7,049 nucleotides of DNA from an uncultured Phycisphaerae bacterium. GTDB lineage: Bacteria; Planctomycetota; Phycisphaerae; Phycisphaerales; SM1A02. How positions within the stretch are numbered: position 1 is the stretch's first letter; each line of letters begins with the position of its first letter. Of this stretch, positions 1-7,049 are shown piece after piece. The translations under genes and the position numbers were made by a program. The stretch covers positions 1 through 7,049 of the forward strand of contig CAJWSE010000056.1 in the NCBI GenBank assembly GCA_913046275.1, written 5' to 3'. The notes beneath the pieces were generated by a model. It was given only the letters and a program-made list of their open reading frames with translations, searched no databases and had not been told where the DNA came from.

Positions 1-71
1 TGTTGTTTGGTTTGTAAAATTACCAAAACCGCCTGTGAGTAAACATTTAGATATAAGAATTGTAGTAATCA

Positions 72-1745
72 TCATGAGCAAGTACCCCAGTTTCCAACAA
101 TATAAAGAATTTCATTAACATTTACTAGCCCATCATTATTGATGTCCGCTGCACATCCCGTGCATTCGCCCCATGAGTCAATAATAGCAAGTAAATCTCC
201 TACTCCGAGTGTACTGTCATTATCAATATCGCCTATGCATCCTTGGCATTCATCAAGAAAACCATTGTTGTCTTCGTCTTCTCCCCCAAGCAAAATTTCA
301 AGTAAGTCAATCGTGCCGTTACTATTACAATCAGTCAGTTTGTCATCAAACGCAATTAGGAAGCTATCAAAGTCATTAAGGTCAATATCGCCATCTTGAT
401 CTATATCATGGATAGCACAAGGTGCGTCAGGAGTTACTAATTCACCAAAACATCCTCTGAAGCCAATGGTGTCAATGTATCCGTGGAAGTCATTGAGTTC
501 TACATCTCCATCATCGTCACTATCAAACTCTACTTGGCCAAGTGAGCTCAAAAATTGCAGAAGTTGGTCCTTCGAATTTTCGGCAAGTTCTTCAAATGCT
601 TTTGCAGAAGCAGTCGCCTGTGATCCAAATGCTCCATGCTCTTCAATTGCAAGTGTTACTCTGGATTCAAATGTGCCATCTGAAAAACGGCCGTCGTGCC
701 AAAGTGGATTTCGATATGCGATTCCCCAAAGCGGTGGGGTTTTAATTTGGCGTGCACTTGCTGCGCCTTGCTCTATTCCATCGCTTGCAATACCCATATC
801 GTGAAGCAAAAAATCAGAGTATGGTTTAATTACGATATTTCGGAGAGGTTCTTCGATTTTAGAATCATTTGAAGTGATGAATGAGGGTGTATGGCACACG
901 GCGCAGCCAATGTTATTAAAAACTATTTCGCCTTGTAAACCTGATTTTGGAGTTTGAGGCGGTGGAGCAAGAAGCCGCTGAAAATCAGTTACACGGTCAA
1001 TGAACTCGTATCCATATTCATCAGGGCTATCTTCTGGATCTGCTACGGTGTCGAATTTTGCAAGAAGTTCAGCGTCACCATTTGGCGCATTATCAAACAT
1101 GATAAAGCGATTGCTTAATCCCATTTCATTTTGTGCAGCGTCGGCAGAAAAAGTTAGTACTGATGCAACTTGTGCTTTCCAACCAAACCGGCCCACATGT
1201 ACCCCATCAGTGTCATCTTCTAAATTTGAGACCATGTGCGCTTGCCCACGTTGAGCCTCTGGTTGCATATCTCGATTGGTGAGTAGATCTTCATCTCTAA
1301 TCGATTCAACTAGTCCATATGCGAGTGTCCCGTTGGTTACTCGGAGCGAAATGACATTTGCTTCTGGTGGGATGATTTCCGTACAATTTTCGTTAATAGA
1401 TTCTGCTTGCATGAGTGACCCCCCAAGTGCAGTCAGTGGATTGAAGCCACCTTTTTTACCGACCTGTCCAAAGAGGGTAACCGTTTGCGATCCTGGGCCT
1501 CCGACAGGATTATTATGGCAATTTCCGCAACTGGTCTTATTAAATATTGGACCAAGCCCGTCTTCAACGGTTAATTCTTGGTTGAATGCGATTTTACCGA
1601 TATCGAATCTCTCGATAAGCTCTTCAGAGAGATTTGGGAGTTTGTCGCCAGGTCTTGGTTGTATAGGGGAGCTTTGAGCGTTGGCATGGCAAAGCTCAAA
1701 TGATAATAGAACAACAGCGATATGTGCAGCAGAGGTTTTTTTCAC
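72..1745 (-). CDS. Secreted di-heme oxidoreductase (DUF1111/DHOR family) with dockerin-like calcium-binding tail
   Basis: Seen: 557 residues. Residues 1-23 form a Sec signal with likely cleavage after ANA. Two c-type heme sites are present, CGNCH at residues 73-77 (1515-1529) and CAVCH at 281-285 (891-905). Around them are family motifs: GPIFNKTSCGNC, LLHDMG near 313-318, and TPPLWGIAYRNPLWHDGRF at about 336-354. Residues 408-557 are an acidic tail with six DxDxDG-like loops, ending in two WGxC units. Known: the DUF1111 family resembles bacterial di-heme cytochrome c peroxidases and was formerly called thiol oxidoreductase; substrates are mostly unknown. Inferred: a periplasmic or surface redox enzyme, with the tail probably anchoring it or binding calcium. 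The start is GTG, chosen because AAGGAG lies 8 nt upstream and residues 1-23 make a good signal peptide. It is divergent from the TPR operon. The catalytic family is secure; the substrate is unknown. Confidence 0.93.
   Translation of the reverse strand: MKKTSAAHIAVVLLSFELCHANAQSSPIQPRPGDKLPNLSEELIERFDIGKIAFNQELTVEDGLGPIFNKTSCGNCHNNPVGGPGSQTVTLFGQVGKKGGFNPLTALGGSLMQAESINENCTEIIPPEANVISLRVTNGTLAYGLVESIRDEDLLTNRDMQPEAQRGQAHMVSNLEDDTDGVHVGRFGWKAQVASVLTFSADAAQNEMGLSNRFIMFDNAPNGDAELLAKFDTVADPEDSPDEYGYEFIDRVTDFQRLLAPPPQTPKSGLQGEIVFNNIGCAVCHTPSFITSNDSKIEEPLRNIVIKPYSDFLLHDMGIASDGIEQGAASARQIKTPPLWGIAYRNPLWHDGRFSDGTFESRVTLAIEEHGAFGSQATASAKAFEELAENSKDQLLQFLSSLGQVEFDSDDDGDVELNDFHGYIDTIGFRGCFGELVTPDAPCAIHDIDQDGDIDLNDFDSFLIAFDDKLTDCNSNGTIDLLEILLGGEDEDNNGFLDECQGCIGDIDNDSTLGVGDLLAIIDSWGECTGCAADINNDGLVNVNEILYIVGNWGTCS
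75..524 (-). other. Dockerin/EF-hand-like tail region of the di-heme protein
   Basis: Residues 408-557 contain successive calcium-loop candidates: DSDDDGDVELNDF (408-420), DIDQDGDIDLNDF (447-459), DCNSNGTIDLLEI (472-484), DEDNNGFLDE (490-499), DIDNDSTLGVGDLL (506-519) and DINNDGLVNVNEIL (534-547). The last two sit in a tandem unit ending WGECTGC and WGTCS, with cysteines at 503, 528, 531 and 556 that could form disulfides. Such tails resemble type I dockerin loops and are common at the C-termini of exported Planctomycetes proteins. There is no sign of a cohesin partner here, so cellulosome-type docking is not implied. Surface attachment or calcium-stabilised folding is inference. Confidence 0.75.
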
Positions 1746-1753
1746 TATTCGCT

Positions 1754-1759
1754 CTCCTT
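1754..1759 (-). promoter_or_regulatory. Shine-Dalgarno AAGGAG for the di-heme gene
   Basis: Read on the minus strand this is AAGGAG, followed by 8 nt and then GTG at 1743-1745. The strong match and good spacing decide in favour of the GTG start. An ATG slightly further upstream (first base at 1770) is out of frame. Confidence 0.75.
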
Positions 1760-1790
1760 GATCTATTCATAGATACGGTACAGTAGGCAC

Positions 1791-1794
1791 AAGG
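1791..1794 (+). promoter_or_regulatory. Shine-Dalgarno AAGG deciding the TPR gene start
   Basis: AAGG lies 9 nt before ATG at 1804 but directly abuts the in-frame TTG at 1795. A ribosome could not use the TTG with this site, so the ATG at 1804 is preferred, giving 253 rather than 256 residues. Confidence 0.5.
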
Positions 1795-1803
1795 TTGCAT
1801 ACA

Positions 1804-2565
1804 ATGTACACGAAGACACAGAAAACAAGAAGTATAAAATTAACGTTTTTGATACTTCTAGGCTTATTTCTAGGGTGTCAAGAAGATCAAGCAAAAACAC
1901 CAACTCTTGCCAAAGAACTTTCTCCTCACTATGAATTGATTCAAAAAGGTCAATTTGGTGCAGCCCGAGTTAGGATTCGTCAATTGTTAGATCAAAACCC
2001 AGACACATCAGGTGCGCTATTTCTTATGGGCTTGAGCTATCAAAAAGAGAAGCAATATGCGAAAGCGGTAGATTGGTTTACAAAAAGCACTAAGGCCACA
2101 TCTGCTTATACCCCAGCGTGGCATTTTTTAGGTTGGTCCCATTTTTATCTCGGTCAAGTGCCGCAATCAAAGCAAGCTTTCCTGCGTTTCCTTGATTTAG
2201 AAGCGGGCGAACCAGATACACTTTTTGGTTTAGGTCTAGTTGCTCTTGAAGAGGCGAAATTTAGAGATGCAGAAATGTATTTTAATTCTGCGATTGAATC
2301 AGCTCAGGCGACAAATGAGATTCAAGCAAAAGCAAAAGCACGACTGGCGGATGTGTATGTAGAACGTGATGACTGGTTGGATGCAGAGCGTCTCTATCAA
2401 ATGGCATTGATGCAAAACCCTGACATGTACGAGGCGTGGTATCGACTTGCGCAAGTGCACAGGAGGTTAGGCAATATTGCCGGTGCTATTAAGGCTGATG
2501 AACAATATAAGCTTGCAAGAAATCGTGTGAGACCTGATTTGCAAGGTACGGAGTTTCCAGAATGA
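1804..2565 (+). CDS. TPR-repeat lipoprotein
   Basis: Seen: 253 residues from ATG. The N-terminus is basic (MYTKTQKTRSIK), then a hydrophobic stretch leads to the lipobox LFLGC (Cys25), so it is probably a lipid-anchored exported protein. The rest is helical and contains about five to six tetratricopeptide repeats, at roughly residues 41-66, 71-99, 104-133, 138-165, 175-206 and 209-238, with the usual W/L-G-Y-A-P spacing (for example the units starting ALFLMGLSYQ and AWYRLAQVHR). Known: TPRs are protein-protein interaction scaffolds. The gene overlaps the next one by 4 bp (ATGA), implying translational coupling. TPR lipoproteins next to ASPIC/UnbV proteins are a recurrent arrangement in Planctomycetes and relatives. 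Inferred: a periplasmic or membrane scaffold that works with the FG-GAP protein. The binding partner is not identifiable from sequence. Confidence 0.88.
   Translation: MYTKTQKTRSIKLTFLILLGLFLGCQEDQAKTPTLAKELSPHYELIQKGQFGAARVRIRQLLDQNPDTSGALFLMGLSYQKEKQYAKAVDWFTKSTKATSAYTPAWHFLGWSHFYLGQVPQSKQAFLRFLDLEAGEPDTLFGLGLVALEEAKFRDAEMYFNSAIESAQATNEIQAKAKARLADVYVERDDWLDAERLYQMALMQNPDMYEAWYRLAQVHRRLGNIAGAIKADEQYKLARNRVRPDLQGTEFPE
2550..2553 (+). promoter_or_regulatory. Shine-Dalgarno GGAG for the FG-GAP gene, inside the TPR gene
   Basis: GGAG lies within the last codons of the TPR gene, 8 nt before ATG at 2562. Together with the ATGA overlap it supports the assigned start and coupled translation of the two lipoproteins. 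Confidence 0.6.
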
Positions 2566-4061
2566 GACGATTCCTTATTCTTTTTTGCATCACAGCATGT
2601 TCAACACAAGAAGAGCCTGGTAATAGGATTTCATTCACAGAAGTGGATGCGGAAATTGATTCCGCACACTCTGAAAAATCAGATTCAGAGTCAATCTTAG
2701 AAGTCAATGGCTCCGGGATGGGCTTATTTGATTTTGATAAAGATGGGGATTTTGATCTATTTGTAGCAAATGCCAATGCGCCATGCCGTTTATATGAAAA
2801 CATAAGTCAAGATACGATTAAATTTCGAGAGGTGACGGAAAAAATCAAGTGTCAGCAACTTGTAGGAGCTACTGGTGTTGCTATTGGCGATGCCAATGGT
2901 GACGACTACGATGATATTTACATAACAAGCCATGGCCAAAACCGTTTGCTTTTAAATATGCAGGGTGATTGGTTTGAAGATGTGACCAAGCGAGCAAACG
3001 TTGGCGATGAGCGGTGGGGCACCAGTGCTCGATTTGGCGATTTAGATGGAGATGGCGACAATGACTTGTATGTTTGTAATTATTTGGATTTTGATCAAAG
3101 TAACTTGCCTGCAAAGGCAAGTTACAAGGGAGAAGATGTATTTGGTGGCCCGCATGGTTTGCCGCCGCAATATGATGTGGTATATGAAAACATTGGTGAT
3201 GGCATTTTTAAAGATGTCACGGAAGTATGGGGCTTTCAAAATAAACCATCATTTGCATTGAATGCCAGCATTATTGACTTCAACAACGATGGTCATTTGG
3301 ATGTTTTTGTGGGCAATGATTCAATGGCAAATTATTTATTTTTAAATGATGGTAATCAGCCGCCTTATTTTGTCAATACTGGTGTTGCTTCTGGTGTTGC
3401 GGCAAATGGTGATGGATCAATGCAGGCGACCATGGGTATTGGGATTTCTGATGTAAGTGGTAATGGGCGAGCGGATGTGTTTACTACTAATTTTTCAAGC
3501 GATACAAATACATTGCACCTTAACCAGGTTACAGGTTTCTTTGATGATCGGACGAAGCGCTATGGTCTTGGGCTGCCGAGTCGAACATATTTAGGATGGA
3601 CTTGTGGTTTTCATGATTTTGATTTGGATGGCGATGATGATCTTTATATAGTCAATGGACACGTCTACCCTAATGCGACAATGTCTACAATGGATAGTGC
3701 GCACAAGCAGGCCCCTTTGTTATTCGAAAGAGAAGGCGAAAGATTTGCTCAAATTAAACAACTCGGTGAGTACGAAGATAGGGCTGCTGTTTTTGGTGAT
3801 TTAGATAATGATGGCGATATAGATATTATTGTTGCGCAAAGGAGCGGTGTCATAAGAATCTTGCGAAATAATGCGGACCCGCCGTCTGTTCAACGCCATA
3901 TAGTGGAAGCACCGCTTGGTGCTCGAATTGTTATTAAATTTACAGATGGGACTTCCGTTACAAAATGGTTTACAGATGGAAGTGGTTTTCAGTCTTCCTC
4001 AGAGCCATTGCCAATCATTTTGCCAGCGAATGCCGAATTGGATGCATTGACTGTTTATTAG
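2562..4061 (+). CDS. FG-GAP/VCBS-repeat lipoprotein with C-terminal ASPIC/UnbV domain (CRTAC1-like)
   Basis: Seen: 499 residues. A short signal, MRRFLILFCITAC, carries a lipobox at Cys13. Seven calcium loops of the DxDxDGxxD type lie at residues 57-65, 110-118, 160-168, 239-247, 297-305, 352-360 and 413-421 (for example DLDGDGDND, DFNNDGHLD, DLDNDGDID; the second and fifth are degenerate). This fits a seven-bladed, integrin-alpha-like beta-propeller. The GGPHGLPPQYDVVYEN and GDGIFKDVTE motifs are typical of CRTAC1/UnbV proteins. Residues 452-499 match an ASPIC/UnbV domain (GARIVIKF, then DGSGFQSSSEP, then LDALTVY), ending early where relatives usually continue with a W-P-x-G segment. Known: a widespread surface family, mostly without assigned function. 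Inferred: a calcium-dependent adhesion or binding protein at the cell surface, working with the co-translated TPR lipoprotein. Family assignment is firm; the ligand is unknown. Confidence 0.92.
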   Translation: MRRFLILFCITACSTQEEPGNRISFTEVDAEIDSAHSEKSDSESILEVNGSGMGLFDFDKDGDFDLFVANANAPCRLYENISQDTIKFREVTEKIKCQQLVGATGVAIGDANGDDYDDIYITSHGQNRLLLNMQGDWFEDVTKRANVGDERWGTSARFGDLDGDGDNDLYVCNYLDFDQSNLPAKASYKGEDVFGGPHGLPPQYDVVYENIGDGIFKDVTEVWGFQNKPSFALNASIIDFNNDGHLDVFVGNDSMANYLFLNDGNQPPYFVNTGVASGVAANGDGSMQATMGIGISDVSGNGRADVFTTNFSSDTNTLHLNQVTGFFDDRTKRYGLGLPSRTYLGWTCGFHDFDLDGDDDLYIVNGHVYPNATMSTMDSAHKQAPLLFEREGERFAQIKQLGEYEDRAAVFGDLDNDGDIDIIVAQRSGVIRILRNNADPPSVQRHIVEAPLGARIVIKFTDGTSVTKWFTDGSGFQSSSEPLPIILPANAELDALTVY

Positions 4062-4106
4062 TCAGTTTTTCGAAGCAGTTTATTGGTTGGTTATGTGCAT
4101 CCAATT
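4036..4106. repeat. Perfect 11-bp inverted repeat spanning the convergent gene ends
   Basis: AATTGGATGCA at 4036-4046 and TGCATCCAATT at 4096-4106 are exact reverse complements separated by 49 nt. The left arm is in the last codons of the FG-GAP gene. The right arm lies just past the DUF1501 stop (4115-4117). The shorter terminator-like hairpin sits mostly within the loop and shares base 4046 with the left arm. It could help end or stabilise transcripts from both sides, but a chance occurrence cannot be excluded. Confidence 0.45.
4046..4070 (+). terminator. Candidate intrinsic terminator of the TPR/FG-GAP operon
   Basis: A 7-bp stem with one G-T pair (ATTGACT at 4046-4052, AGTCAGT at 4060-4066) closes a 7-nt loop. 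A T run follows, TTTTT at 4066-4070, whose first T is also the last stem base. The TAG stop (4059-4061) lies in the loop and 3' arm. The stem is AT-rich and short, so efficiency is doubtful, but its position at the operon end is right. Confidence 0.4.
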
Positions 4107-4114
4107 TGCATGTT

Positions 4115-5437
4115 TTAAGATAGCACTTTAGCTTTGTTGTATTTTTTTCCTAGTATTTCTTTTGCATTTGCACCCATGTGATCTTCTAAAATAGCAGAGT
4201 ACACTTCTCTAAAATCAGTGTTGTAAATTAAATCGCCTTGGTCAAGTTTTGTTAAGGAAGGGTGGGTGCCAAGCAAGCCATTTTCTACATTGTCGCCAAT
4301 TAAAAACATTGGAGCAGCAGTTCCGTGATCAGTTCCTGATGAACCATTTTGCGCAACTCGTCGCCCAAACTCACTAAATACCATTGTTAGTACTTTTTTA
4401 GTATTGCCTTGTTTTCCTAAATCCTTTTGAAATGCCAGAAGTGCATCGCCGACTTGCTGCATAAGGTTTGCGTGGCTGTTGATTTGGTTTGCGTGCGTAT
4501 CAAAACCGCCGAGGCTCGCGTAATACACTCGTGTTGGTAAATCAGCGCGTATCATTGAGCCAATAAGTTGAAGTTGCTGCGCCAATTTTCCATTTGGGTA
4601 ATTAATCAGCGGCGATTTTGAGACAGCATTTCGTATTCGATCAGAAGATACTTGCGCATCTAATGCTGTTCGTACAAGGAAACTTAATTGTGAATCCTTG
4701 GATTTAACTTCTTGAGAATTTGCTCGATTGATTTCATCATATGGATCAACAAGTTCATCGCTTACATTTTCTCCTGCCCAACGAAAGAGTTCTTCAGTTT
4801 CAAAGTTCACTGCTTTTTGCATTTTTCCATGGAGCGCTAGGGGGGCTTTGTTTCCAATTGCAATTGATCCTTGTGGGCTTGGTTGGCCAGCGCATGTATT
4901 GTCAAAGTAGCGTCCTAGCCATCCATATCCTTGTGCATGGTGATTGCCTGTATGCCAGATGTCAGTCGAAGTAAAGTGAGAACGATTAGGATTCGGATAG
5001 CCGACCCCTTGCACAATTGCAGCCTGTCCCTCATCAAGCAAATCACGTAGGCCAGTTAACTTAGGATGCAGGCCAAAGCCGTCTGCGCCAGGAATCTCAA
5101 GGGCGCTATTATTTCCCTTTCCTGGCGCTTGGATCGCTATTTGCGGCCTGTTTGTGTAGTACTCACGAGCGCCATATGGAATGATGGTATTTAAGCCGTC
5201 ATTACCCCCGGCAAGTTGGATTACAACCAATGTGTGGTCTTCGGGAATGCCTGCTTGTGAAGAAACTAGCGAACCTACTGGAAGCATGATGCCTTCAGCT
5301 GAGCGTTGCATAAAGAGTGGGACTGTCGAAGCCATTGATAGAAACGCCATACCTTGTTGCATGAATAGTCGTCGACTATACGCATCAGAAGAGCCAGTAC
5401 TTATTTGTTCGTGATGGTGGTGATGGTCATGTGTCAT
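4115..5437 (-). CDS. DUF1501 family protein with Tat-like signal and histidine-rich N-terminus
   Basis: Seen: 440 residues, close to usual family length. Residues 3-10 are HDHHHHHE. A twin-arginine-like motif SRRLFMQQG (21-29) is followed by a hydrophobic stretch to about residue 42. Family motifs are LAGGNDGLNT (75-84), YPNPNRSHFTSTDIWHTG (147-164), GGFDTHANQ (310-318) and FSEFGRRVAQNGSSGTDHGT (354-373), then APMFLIGDNV. Known: DUF1501 is related to the alkaline phosphatase/sulfatase superfamily, is usually exported, and often sits beside DUF1800; its biochemical role is not established. The invariant-looking D312, H314, D370 and H371 could bind metal. The gene follows DUF1800 after 10 nt, with an SD (AAGGA) overlapping the upstream stop, so the pair is probably co-transcribed and coupled. 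Inferred: a periplasmic or surface protein acting with DUF1800. Confidence 0.93.
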   Translation of the reverse strand: MTHDHHHHHEQISTGSSDAYSRRLFMQQGMAFLSMASTVPLFMQRSAEGIMLPVGSLVSSQAGIPEDHTLVVIQLAGGNDGLNTIIPYGAREYYTNRPQIAIQAPGKGNNSALEIPGADGFGLHPKLTGLRDLLDEGQAAIVQGVGYPNPNRSHFTSTDIWHTGNHHAQGYGWLGRYFDNTCAGQPSPQGSIAIGNKAPLALHGKMQKAVNFETEELFRWAGENVSDELVDPYDEINRANSQEVKSKDSQLSFLVRTALDAQVSSDRIRNAVSKSPLINYPNGKLAQQLQLIGSMIRADLPTRVYYASLGGFDTHANQINSHANLMQQVGDALLAFQKDLGKQGNTKKVLTMVFSEFGRRVAQNGSSGTDHGTAAPMFLIGDNVENGLLGTHPSLTKLDQGDLIYNTDFREVYSAILEDHMGANAKEILGKKYNKAKVLS

Positions 5438-5444
5438 CGTTCGT

Positions 5445-5449
5445 TCCTT
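5445..5449 (-). promoter_or_regulatory. Shine-Dalgarno AAGGA for DUF1501, overlapping the DUF1800 stop
   Basis: On the minus strand the sequence reads TAAGGAACGAACG and then ATG. The TAA stop of the upstream gene supplies the first bases of the ribosome site, which is 7 nt from the start. This supports the start at 5437 and translational coupling. Confidence 0.65.
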
Positions 5450-7046
5450 AGCTCAATTGGTATTCTGGCATCGCAGTAATAAGTGTAAGTAATTCCGTTA
5501 TTGATTCGTTATTTATTTTGTTGTGCTGCGTTGTCATAAAAACTTGAAGTGATTCAACGCGTTCCTTATTTGGTTTATCTTGATTTAAAAGTGTGCTTAA
5601 AAGATATGTTATGGTCGCTTTAGAATCATTGTCTTGTTCTCTGATGAGCGACATGGCATCGAATTTCGCACCATCCGACTCCCATGCTGGTTCGTCTGGT
5701 CGCTGACCAGTCAACATGTAAAGTAATGTGTTTTGCCTCATGAAGAGTGTTGAAGTGTTAATCCATGATCGACCACCATCCCAACCTTTTACTGAGGGAG
5801 GTGCGAACAAGCGTTGCCCCATAACATCAGAGGAAATCGCCAGCGTGCGAATCATTTTTTTGCGTTGCGGCGGATTAAGAGTTCTTGCTGCTTGGACAAT
5901 TAATTGCACTGGACTTTTTATGATTGCATTCATGTTTGCCTTATCGTAAAAATGCTCCGACAAAAATATTGTTTCAATGACTGGCTTGAGCTCCCAATCC
6001 TTTCGTTTAAATAGATTAGAGATTGATAATACAAACTTCTTCGAATCGTTCGTTTCGCCATTTGGCAAATCATTCACAAAAAAACGATAGAGTTTTTCGA
6101 TGATAAAGGTTGAAGCACTTGGGCGAGTAAAGATTAGATCAACAAAATCATTGCCATCATAATTTCCTGACCTGCCAAAGAGTTTCTTTTTTCCAGTATC
6201 GTGGCTACGGATTTTAAAAGCAAAGTCATCATCGGCGTAGCTGTAACCTGTCAGACAACGTGCACCTTCTTTAATATCGTCTTCGTCATATCCTTGACCT
6301 TCACCAAGCGTGAACAATTCCATAAGTTCGCGCGCAAGGTTCTCATTGGGTGCGCCTTTCTTGTTTTGGTGATTGTTTAAATATTGAATCATTGCAGGGT
6401 CACGAATGATGCCCTTTACTAACTGCTCTTTGAAATTGCCTAACGCGTTATTTCGCAAAAACATATTTTGCAAATACATGTGATAACTATTCTCGATTGT
6501 TCGGTATCCCGTTGCGAAGTGACCATGCCAAAAGAGTGTGAGTTTTTCTTCGAGCGGCCTTGGCGTGGTAATCATTCTTTGAAGCCACCATCGTTCCATT
6601 TCAGAAATTTGTTTTCTATCATCTCGTTGTCTTTGCTGGCGTTCTTTTCGATATCTGTCAACGATTTCTTCGTTGCCATTTTCTCGAGCTTTTCGGAGTA
6701 CATCACGTTCGGCCGGAGTCGCTGGTCGCGCCTTGGCCAGCGCGTCCTGATAACTGCACTCCACCTCTGCGATAGCGGCGGTGGACAGCAGTTTCTGCAC
6801 CACCGCGTCCTCCAGCACACGTGACTCGATACCCGCAAGCTGCTCATTCTCTGAGTAGTACCAATTGATCACTTCCTCAGGATCCTGGTAGGTCGAAGCG
6901 ATATCCTCGATCGTCCCACGCACCTTAGCGGGCTCCGCTGTTAACTCAAATTGACTGATCATTTCTGCCACAACCAGTCCCAGCTTGACGCGACGCTCGG
7001 CCTGATCAGCGAACATCTCGTCAGGCAGTATAGAAGCTAAGTCCAT
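5448..7046 (-). CDS. DUF1800 family protein, 5' end replaced by a trigger-factor fragment (apparent fusion)
   Basis: Seen: an open frame of 532 codons from an ATG at 7046 that stays open to the window edge, so the true start may lie outside. From about residue 110 it is DUF1800: WWLQRMITTPRPLEEKLTLF (153-172) then WHGHFATG, NENLARELMELFTLG (234-248), IKEGARCLTGY (258-268), an FxGRSGNYDGNDFVDLIF-like stretch (290-306), and SVKGWDGGRSWINTSTLFMR (418-437). The C-terminus looks complete. Residues 1 to about 105 are not DUF1800 but resemble the end of trigger factor; the usual DUF1800 N-terminus (export signal and the HLLxRxGFG-type region) is missing. Known: DUF1800 proteins are exported, of unknown function, and genetically paired with DUF1501, as here. 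Inferred: the genuine gene continued upstream in its own genome and was joined in frame to foreign sequence near 6708-6761. DUF1800 identity is firm; the fused form is doubtful. Confidence 0.85.
   Translation of the reverse strand: MDLASILPDEMFADQAERRVKLGLVVAEMISQFELTAEPAKVRGTIEDIASTYQDPEEVINWYYSENEQLAGIESRVLEDAVVQKLLSTAAIAEVECSYQDALAKARPATPAERDVLRKARENGNEEIVDRYRKERQQRQRDDRKQISEMERWWLQRMITTPRPLEEKLTLFWHGHFATGYRTIENSYHMYLQNMFLRNNALGNFKEQLVKGIIRDPAMIQYLNNHQNKKGAPNENLARELMELFTLGEGQGYDEDDIKEGARCLTGYSYADDDFAFKIRSHDTGKKKLFGRSGNYDGNDFVDLIFTRPSASTFIIEKLYRFFVNDLPNGETNDSKKFVLSISNLFKRKDWELKPVIETIFLSEHFYDKANMNAIIKSPVQLIVQAARTLNPPQRKKMIRTLAISSDVMGQRLFAPPSVKGWDGGRSWINTSTLFMRQNTLLYMLTGQRPDEPAWESDGAKFDAMSLIREQDNDSKATITYLLSTLLNQDKPNKERVESLQVFMTTQHNKINNESITELLTLITAMPEYQLS
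6708..6761. other. Inferred junction between trigger-factor-like and DUF1800 sequence
   Basis: The last GAG-style Glu codon of the Tig-like part is residue 96 (6759-6761) and the first GAA-style codon of the DUF1800 part is residue 113 (6708-6710). Recognisable Tig similarity fades after about residue 103, and the charged DUF1800 linker (AERDVLRKAREN) begins near residue 112. No transposon end, att-like site or obvious repeat lies at the boundary, which fits an assembly join or illegitimate recombination better than a mobile element. Confidence 0.65.
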
Positions 7047-7049
7047 GTC
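6728..7049 (-). pseudogene. tig: C-terminal fragment of trigger factor (peptidyl-prolyl isomerase chaperone), gammaproteobacterial style
   Basis: Seen: about 105 residues, partial at the window edge, running from MDLASILPDEMFADQAERR through GLVVAEMI, KVRGTIEDIASTYQDPEEVI, NWYYSENEQL, AGIESRVLEDAVVQKLL and ECSYQDALAK. This order matches the end of the Tig C-terminal chaperone domain: LPDxLFxxQAxRRVxLGL, then xxIEExAxxYxDPxEVxxWYY, then IExxVLExxVVxxxL, then a short tail. Known: trigger factor is a ribosome-bound cytosolic folding chaperone, so it makes no functional sense at the N-terminus of an exported DUF1800 protein. The stretch has about 56% GC by hand count (about 65% over 6721-6840) against 42% in the next 300 bases, and 12 of 14 Glu codons are GAG. 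No Tig stop codon is seen before the DUF1800 sequence begins. The first Met is probably an internal Tig residue. Confidence 0.8.

Follow-up and report, generated by a model that had tools for sequence, protein, structure and literature searches.

Does the open reading frame at the end of this contig encode a new fusion protein, or does it join the genes of two different organisms? The frame begins as the C-terminal part of the chaperone trigger factor (Tig) and continues as a DUF1800 protein, on a contig assigned to an uncultured Phycisphaerae bacterium. A preliminary description of the locus, made from the letters alone, considered both a new domain architecture produced by horizontal transfer and a join of two genomes during assembly or library preparation, and preferred the second. 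We analysed the whole stretch of 7,049 nucleotides (hereafter the window) and concluded that it was a chimeric contig, in which the assembler joined the genes of two genomes at a word that both of them contained; we put the probability of this reading at about 0.86. It was almost certain that the genes of two marine bacteria were wrongly joined at a common word of seven residues.

Structure of the chimeric frame

The frame occupied positions 7049-5448 on the minus strand, comprised 533 codons and reached the window's end. With the whole frame as the query, Pfam assigned residues 9-88 to Trigger_C (E 1.8e-14) and residues 82-532 to DUF1800 (E 8.6e-104). When the frame was split, residues 1-106 matched Trigger_C alone (E 4.4e-16) and residues 111-533 matched DUF1800 (PF08811) alone (E 3.4e-103), confirming the earlier claim that a Tig C-terminus was joined in frame to a DUF1800 protein. 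The Trigger_C profile was covered over positions 82-161 of 162, its Tig side being truncated by the window's end, and the DUF1800 profile over positions 47-419 of 419, with the conserved start absent. The NCBIfam tig model also matched residues 9-88, and its score of 57 bits against a whole-protein cut-off of 180.2 was expected since the Tig piece was a fragment.

The frame consisted of the last 114 residues of a Tig protein and, continuing in frame, residues 73-498 of a DUF1800 protein. The two parts overlapped over seven residues, 108-114 (window positions 6708-6728). Since these seven residues were common to both parents, no unique base could be named as the breakpoint. The join had previously been put at about residues 105 to 110, which was right to within a few residues and can now be refined to 108-114. 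The features of the window are listed in Table 1.

Table 1. Coordinates of the features in the window (position 1 is its first letter)
Feature	Position	Strand	Remarks
Tig gene, 3' part, Halieaceae (Luminiphilus-like)	6729..7049	-	ORF codons 1-107, continues past the window's end; Trigger_C; 96% to P0121/P0122
Junction word, 21 bases, RPATPAE	6708..6728	-	Same frame in both parents: C-terminal end of Tig, residues 73-79 of DUF1800
DUF1800 gene, Phycisphaerales	5448..6707	-	Codons 115-533 and stop; native first 72 codons missing; PF08811
DUF1501 gene, downstream of DUF1800	4115..5437	-	PF07394
FG-GAP repeat protein	2562..4061	+	PF13517; 56-60% identity to its syntenic counterparts in L002-L004
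TPR protein	1795..2565	+	TPR families; 50-51% identity to its syntenic counterparts in L002-L004
Di-haem oxidoreductase-like protein	72..1745	-	PF06537; 67-69% identity to its syntenic counterparts in L002-L004 (L004 stops inside)

The composition of the DNA changed at the same place. The GC fraction was 0.562 over 6721-7049 versus 0.423 over 6421-6720, and the highest value among the 321-base stretches scanned in 1-6707 was 0.514. GC3 was 0.66 before the join and 0.38 after it. Residues 1-107 contained 12 GAG and 2 GAA codons for Glu together with 6 ATC, 0 ATT and 1 ATA codons for Ile; after residue 114, eight consecutive Glu codons were GAA. Thus, our recount reproduced the switch in GC content and in Glu and Ile codons that had been noticed from the letters.

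Origin of the DUF1800 part

In the protein search with the whole frame, the 7997 candidates that had most words in common with the query were scored; 7885 of them had E <=0.001, and the best 120 were listed. DUF1800 was the sole precomputed domain in all 120 of these relatives. The best match among those listed was P0001, an intact DUF1800 protein of 498 residues from a 129,231-base contig, which was identical to residues 108-533 of the window frame at 417 of 426 positions (98%). Its alignment began exactly at RPATPAER. In place of the Tig piece, the first 72 residues of P0001 formed an ordinary DUF1800 start that was common to other aligned relatives. An LLxRAGFG start was present in 110 of the 120 listed DUF1800 proteins and absent from the window frame. 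In comparison to the DUF1800 protein (PF08811) of Phycisphaerales, the window covered 426 of 498 residues and had DUF1501 as the next gene; the remaining 72 residues at the start, with the LLQRAGFG motif, were replaced by Tig sequence. The RPATPAE word itself occurred in just one of the 120 listed relatives, P0001, the nearest to the window. By eye, the N-terminus of P0001 had no obvious signal sequence.

At the DNA level, the best identity to the DUF1800 part was only 73% among 400 genomes from the order of the Phycisphaerales genome G001 (190 matching). Among 181 genomes of its family (142 matching), the best match to P0001 was 75%, and the DNA of P0001 itself was not found.

The genes next to the frame pointed to the same group. 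The order and the relative orientation of the DUF1501, FG-GAP, TPR and di-haem oxidoreductase genes were kept in three loci from Phycisphaerales metagenome-assembled genomes (MAGs; L002, L003 and L004), and a fourth locus (L001) terminated within DUF1501. The FG-GAP, TPR and di-haem oxidoreductase genes anchor the window to Phycisphaerales. DUF1501 adjoined DUF1800, in line with it, in the window as well as in L001-L004 and L089-L115, loci that represent 15 distinct genomes; the accessible text of PMC5122149 assigns this pair to one predicted operon. Directly upstream of DUF1800 in L001-L004 was a frame of 717-720 residues that was not tig and whose start resembled, by eye, a metal-transporting P-type ATPase. 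No match to the Tig part was found in these four loci. The preliminary description had taken the rest of the frame to be planctomycetal, in agreement with the close similarity to P0001 and with the gene order kept in the three MAG loci.

Several features of the neighbouring genes can be mentioned here. The TPR and FG-GAP genes overlapped by 4 bases (2562-2565), and they were also neighbours in L002-L004. The di-haem oxidoreductase-like protein carried, by eye, Asp-rich repeats in its C-terminal tail that were similar to dockerin or EF-hand repeats. The DUF1501 protein had a His-rich start with a twin-arginine-like SRRLFM stretch, also recognised by eye, and a start of this type is described for other DUF1501 proteins in the accessible text of PMC5122149.

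Origin of the trigger factor part

The protein search with residues 1-107 produced 1572 candidates, 1187 of them at E <=0.001, and all of the best 120, which were listed, carried trigger factor domains (up to 96% identical, P0121/P0122). These relatives matched the window beyond residue 107, and 13 of the 120 ended with KARPATPAE. A scan of one genome per species with the whole frame gave 68 loci. The match was to the Tig part in 64 of them and to the DUF1800 part in the other 4; the nearest Tig loci belonged to Luminiphilus and Halieaceae MAGs.

Accordingly, the closest DNA that we found was from Halieaceae, where 89 of 140 genomes had a DNA match and the best two (G007 and G106) reached 94% over 342 bases, narrowing down the earlier suggestion of a gammaproteobacterial Tig. 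In G106 (L077), 321 of 342 bases were identical through the last codon of RPATPAE, and the same count was obtained for G007 (L007). Past this word, the identity of G106 fell to 20 of 78 bases, because a TAG stop ended its tig gene there; a clpP-like frame (by eye) followed. The tig genes of G106 and L005-L008 all terminated where the word ends or slightly earlier. In comparison to the Halieaceae Tig (TIGR00115/PF05698), the window contained the last 114 residues, including the C-terminal end, but the native stop was missing, and the remainder of Tig would be located beyond the window's end.

The Tig part was also compared with one trigger factor locus, the best, from each of the four Phycisphaerales genomes G001-G004 (L073-L076), and no significant match to these loci was obtained: the sole two reported had E values of 0.12 and 4.0. 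Each of these genomes exceeded the Pfam cut-off for Trigger_C at two separate places, one in an open frame of 499-516 residues and the other in one of 419-466 residues, amounting to two trigger factor-like genes per genome.

Two other trigger factor sequences were encountered. One, at L016:522-848, was a trigger factor end that was 79-80% identical to the Luminiphilus-like one; its contig had been placed in a Verrucomicrobiota bin (isolate SFB_18D_100_42) and may be a binning contaminant. The other, P0127, was a trigger factor of 333 residues listed with '-' as its source, a mark otherwise given to proteins of the window itself, although the Tig allele in the window is a different one and no more than its last 114 residues are encoded there.

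The word shared at the join

RPATPAE was the longest word common to P0001 and the full-length Tig protein P0123, and it was located exactly at the join. In 500 shuffles of P0001 and P0123, the longest shared word had 3-6 residues and never 7. Similarly, it had 3-5 residues and never 7 in 1800 real pairs, in which 30 listed Tig proteins of more than 430 residues were combined with 60 DUF1800 relatives taken from the 119 that were listed besides P0001. Thus, a join placed at random would not be expected on RPATPAE.

A pattern of 24 bases at the junction was found in G106 with 1 mismatch. With up to 3 mismatches, it was present in 5 of the 140 Halieaceae genomes, three times in tig and twice elsewhere (L116 and L117, without a Tig match), and the reversed control of the pattern gave 3 matches in the same 140 genomes. 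In view of the matches outside tig and of those of the control, only the one-mismatch match inside tig carried weight. The exact 21-base word was absent from the 119 loci retrieved in this work and from the viral contigs searched, and a search of plasmid DNA with positions 6400-7049 gave no match. Judging from the protein identity of P0001 and from the Tig relative with 1 mismatch in 24 bases, the two parents were probably identical over all 21 bases. If P0001 and G106 are good models of them, the stretch of identity could not exceed 22 bases, because the next Tig codon was a stop versus CGT in the window and the residue before the word in DUF1800 was Met versus GCG, so that no more than one further base could be common to both.

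We also counted the exact words common to 4 Phycisphaerales and 59 gammaproteobacterial loci on both strands, with L016 left out and with the expectation calculated from uniform bases. No 21-mer was shared (0.05 expected); the numbers of shared 15-mers, 17-mers and 19-mers were 312, 26 and 6, where 196, 13 and 0.8 were expected. Exact shared 21-mers are rare per genome pair; a metagenome supplies very many pairs.

Search for a second fusion

The preliminary description had suggested a search for other sequences covering both parts. None of the 240 listed proteins contained a marker word from each part, and none of the 119 loci matched both parts. These loci, which included repeat fetches of the same place, comprised 82 that matched the Tig part, 31 that matched the DUF1800 part and 6 that matched neither. 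In addition, no paper in the literature searched named trigger factor together with DUF1800.

Probable origin of the chimera

The results supported the join of two genomes that had been preferred at the outset, since each side of the frame had an intact relative that continued in a different way: P0001 on the DUF1800 side, and G106 and L005-L008 on the Tig side. We propose that positions 1 to about 6728 came from a Phycisphaerales (Planctomycetota) genome, and that positions from about 6708 to 7049 came from the 3' end of tig in another genome of that sample, from Halieaceae (Luminiphilus-like). In this case, the word of about 21 bases encoding RPATPAE in both genes would have become a shared node for an assembler that used short words (a short-k de Bruijn graph), and at this node the assembler would have switched from the Phycisphaerales path to the Halieaceae path. 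The frame stayed open because both genes read the shared word in one and the same frame and the Tig stop comes directly after it. The in-frame reading follows from this common frame, so no function has to be assumed for it.

According to the accessible text of PMC7299287, k-mers common to several genomes link assembly graphs and can give chimeric contigs. The methods of one study, as seen in part of PMC9927493, include a MEGAHIT run with a k-min of 21, and 21-22 shared bases are just enough for one or two k-mers of k=21. The window was similar to such chimeras in that two genomes were joined at a short word, with a step in composition and taxonomy at the join and with the join near the window's end. 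However, the accessible part of PMC7299287 concerns mainly related species, whereas the two parents of the window belonged to different phyla. The window also differed from the usual chimera of this kind because its word was in frame in two coding genes and mimicked a protein fusion.

The join probably arose during assembly rather than in the DNA library, and the verdict of a chimera did not depend on this question. The main rival explanation, considerably less probable, was template switching at the same 21-base word before sequencing, during PCR or multiple displacement amplification (MDA). Template switching likewise uses short matches, and the accessible text of PMC1855051 states that the matches which primed MDA chimeras reached 21 bp; moreover, the Tig overhang was only 342 bases including the word and would fit one fragment. 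However, 21 bp was the upper end in the same part of that study, inversions made up 85% of the chimeras and events within one molecule were favoured. Nothing indicated amplification of that kind in the library. Ligation chimeras are a common library artefact, and a random ligation of two fragments could also have joined the two genes. Nevertheless, it would not be expected to land on the longest word shared by the two proteins, and we rejected it as very improbable.

A real fusion, formed once a Phycisphaerales cell had acquired the 3' end of a Halieaceae tig gene, was compatible with a frame that remained open through the join for 533 residues. However, neither the listed proteins nor the loci provided a second case, and the conserved start of DUF1800 would have been lost. 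The join was located at a shared word, 342 bases from the contig end, and the best trigger factor loci of G001-G004 showed no significant similarity to the Tig part. The 94% DNA identity to Halieaceae, together with a composition unlike that of the rest of the window, would require any such transfer to be very recent. We rejected horizontal transfer with a real fusion as extremely improbable on three grounds: no second case among the sequences examined, high DNA identity to Halieaceae and loss of the conserved DUF1800 start. Its most specific form, a very recent microhomology-mediated transfer in which the Halieaceae tig 3' end replaced the DUF1800 start in a Phycisphaerales strain, would be just as far-fetched.

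Implications

The frame was almost certainly not a new domain architecture, and it looked like an ordinary sequencing artefact. It can serve as a caution that two genes with a word of about 21 bases in common can give rise to an apparent in-frame domain architecture across phyla. A cheap test for such artefacts is to ask whether the two parents have a word in common at the join. Entries of this type should stay out of protein databases as fusions and out of the counts of horizontal transfer.
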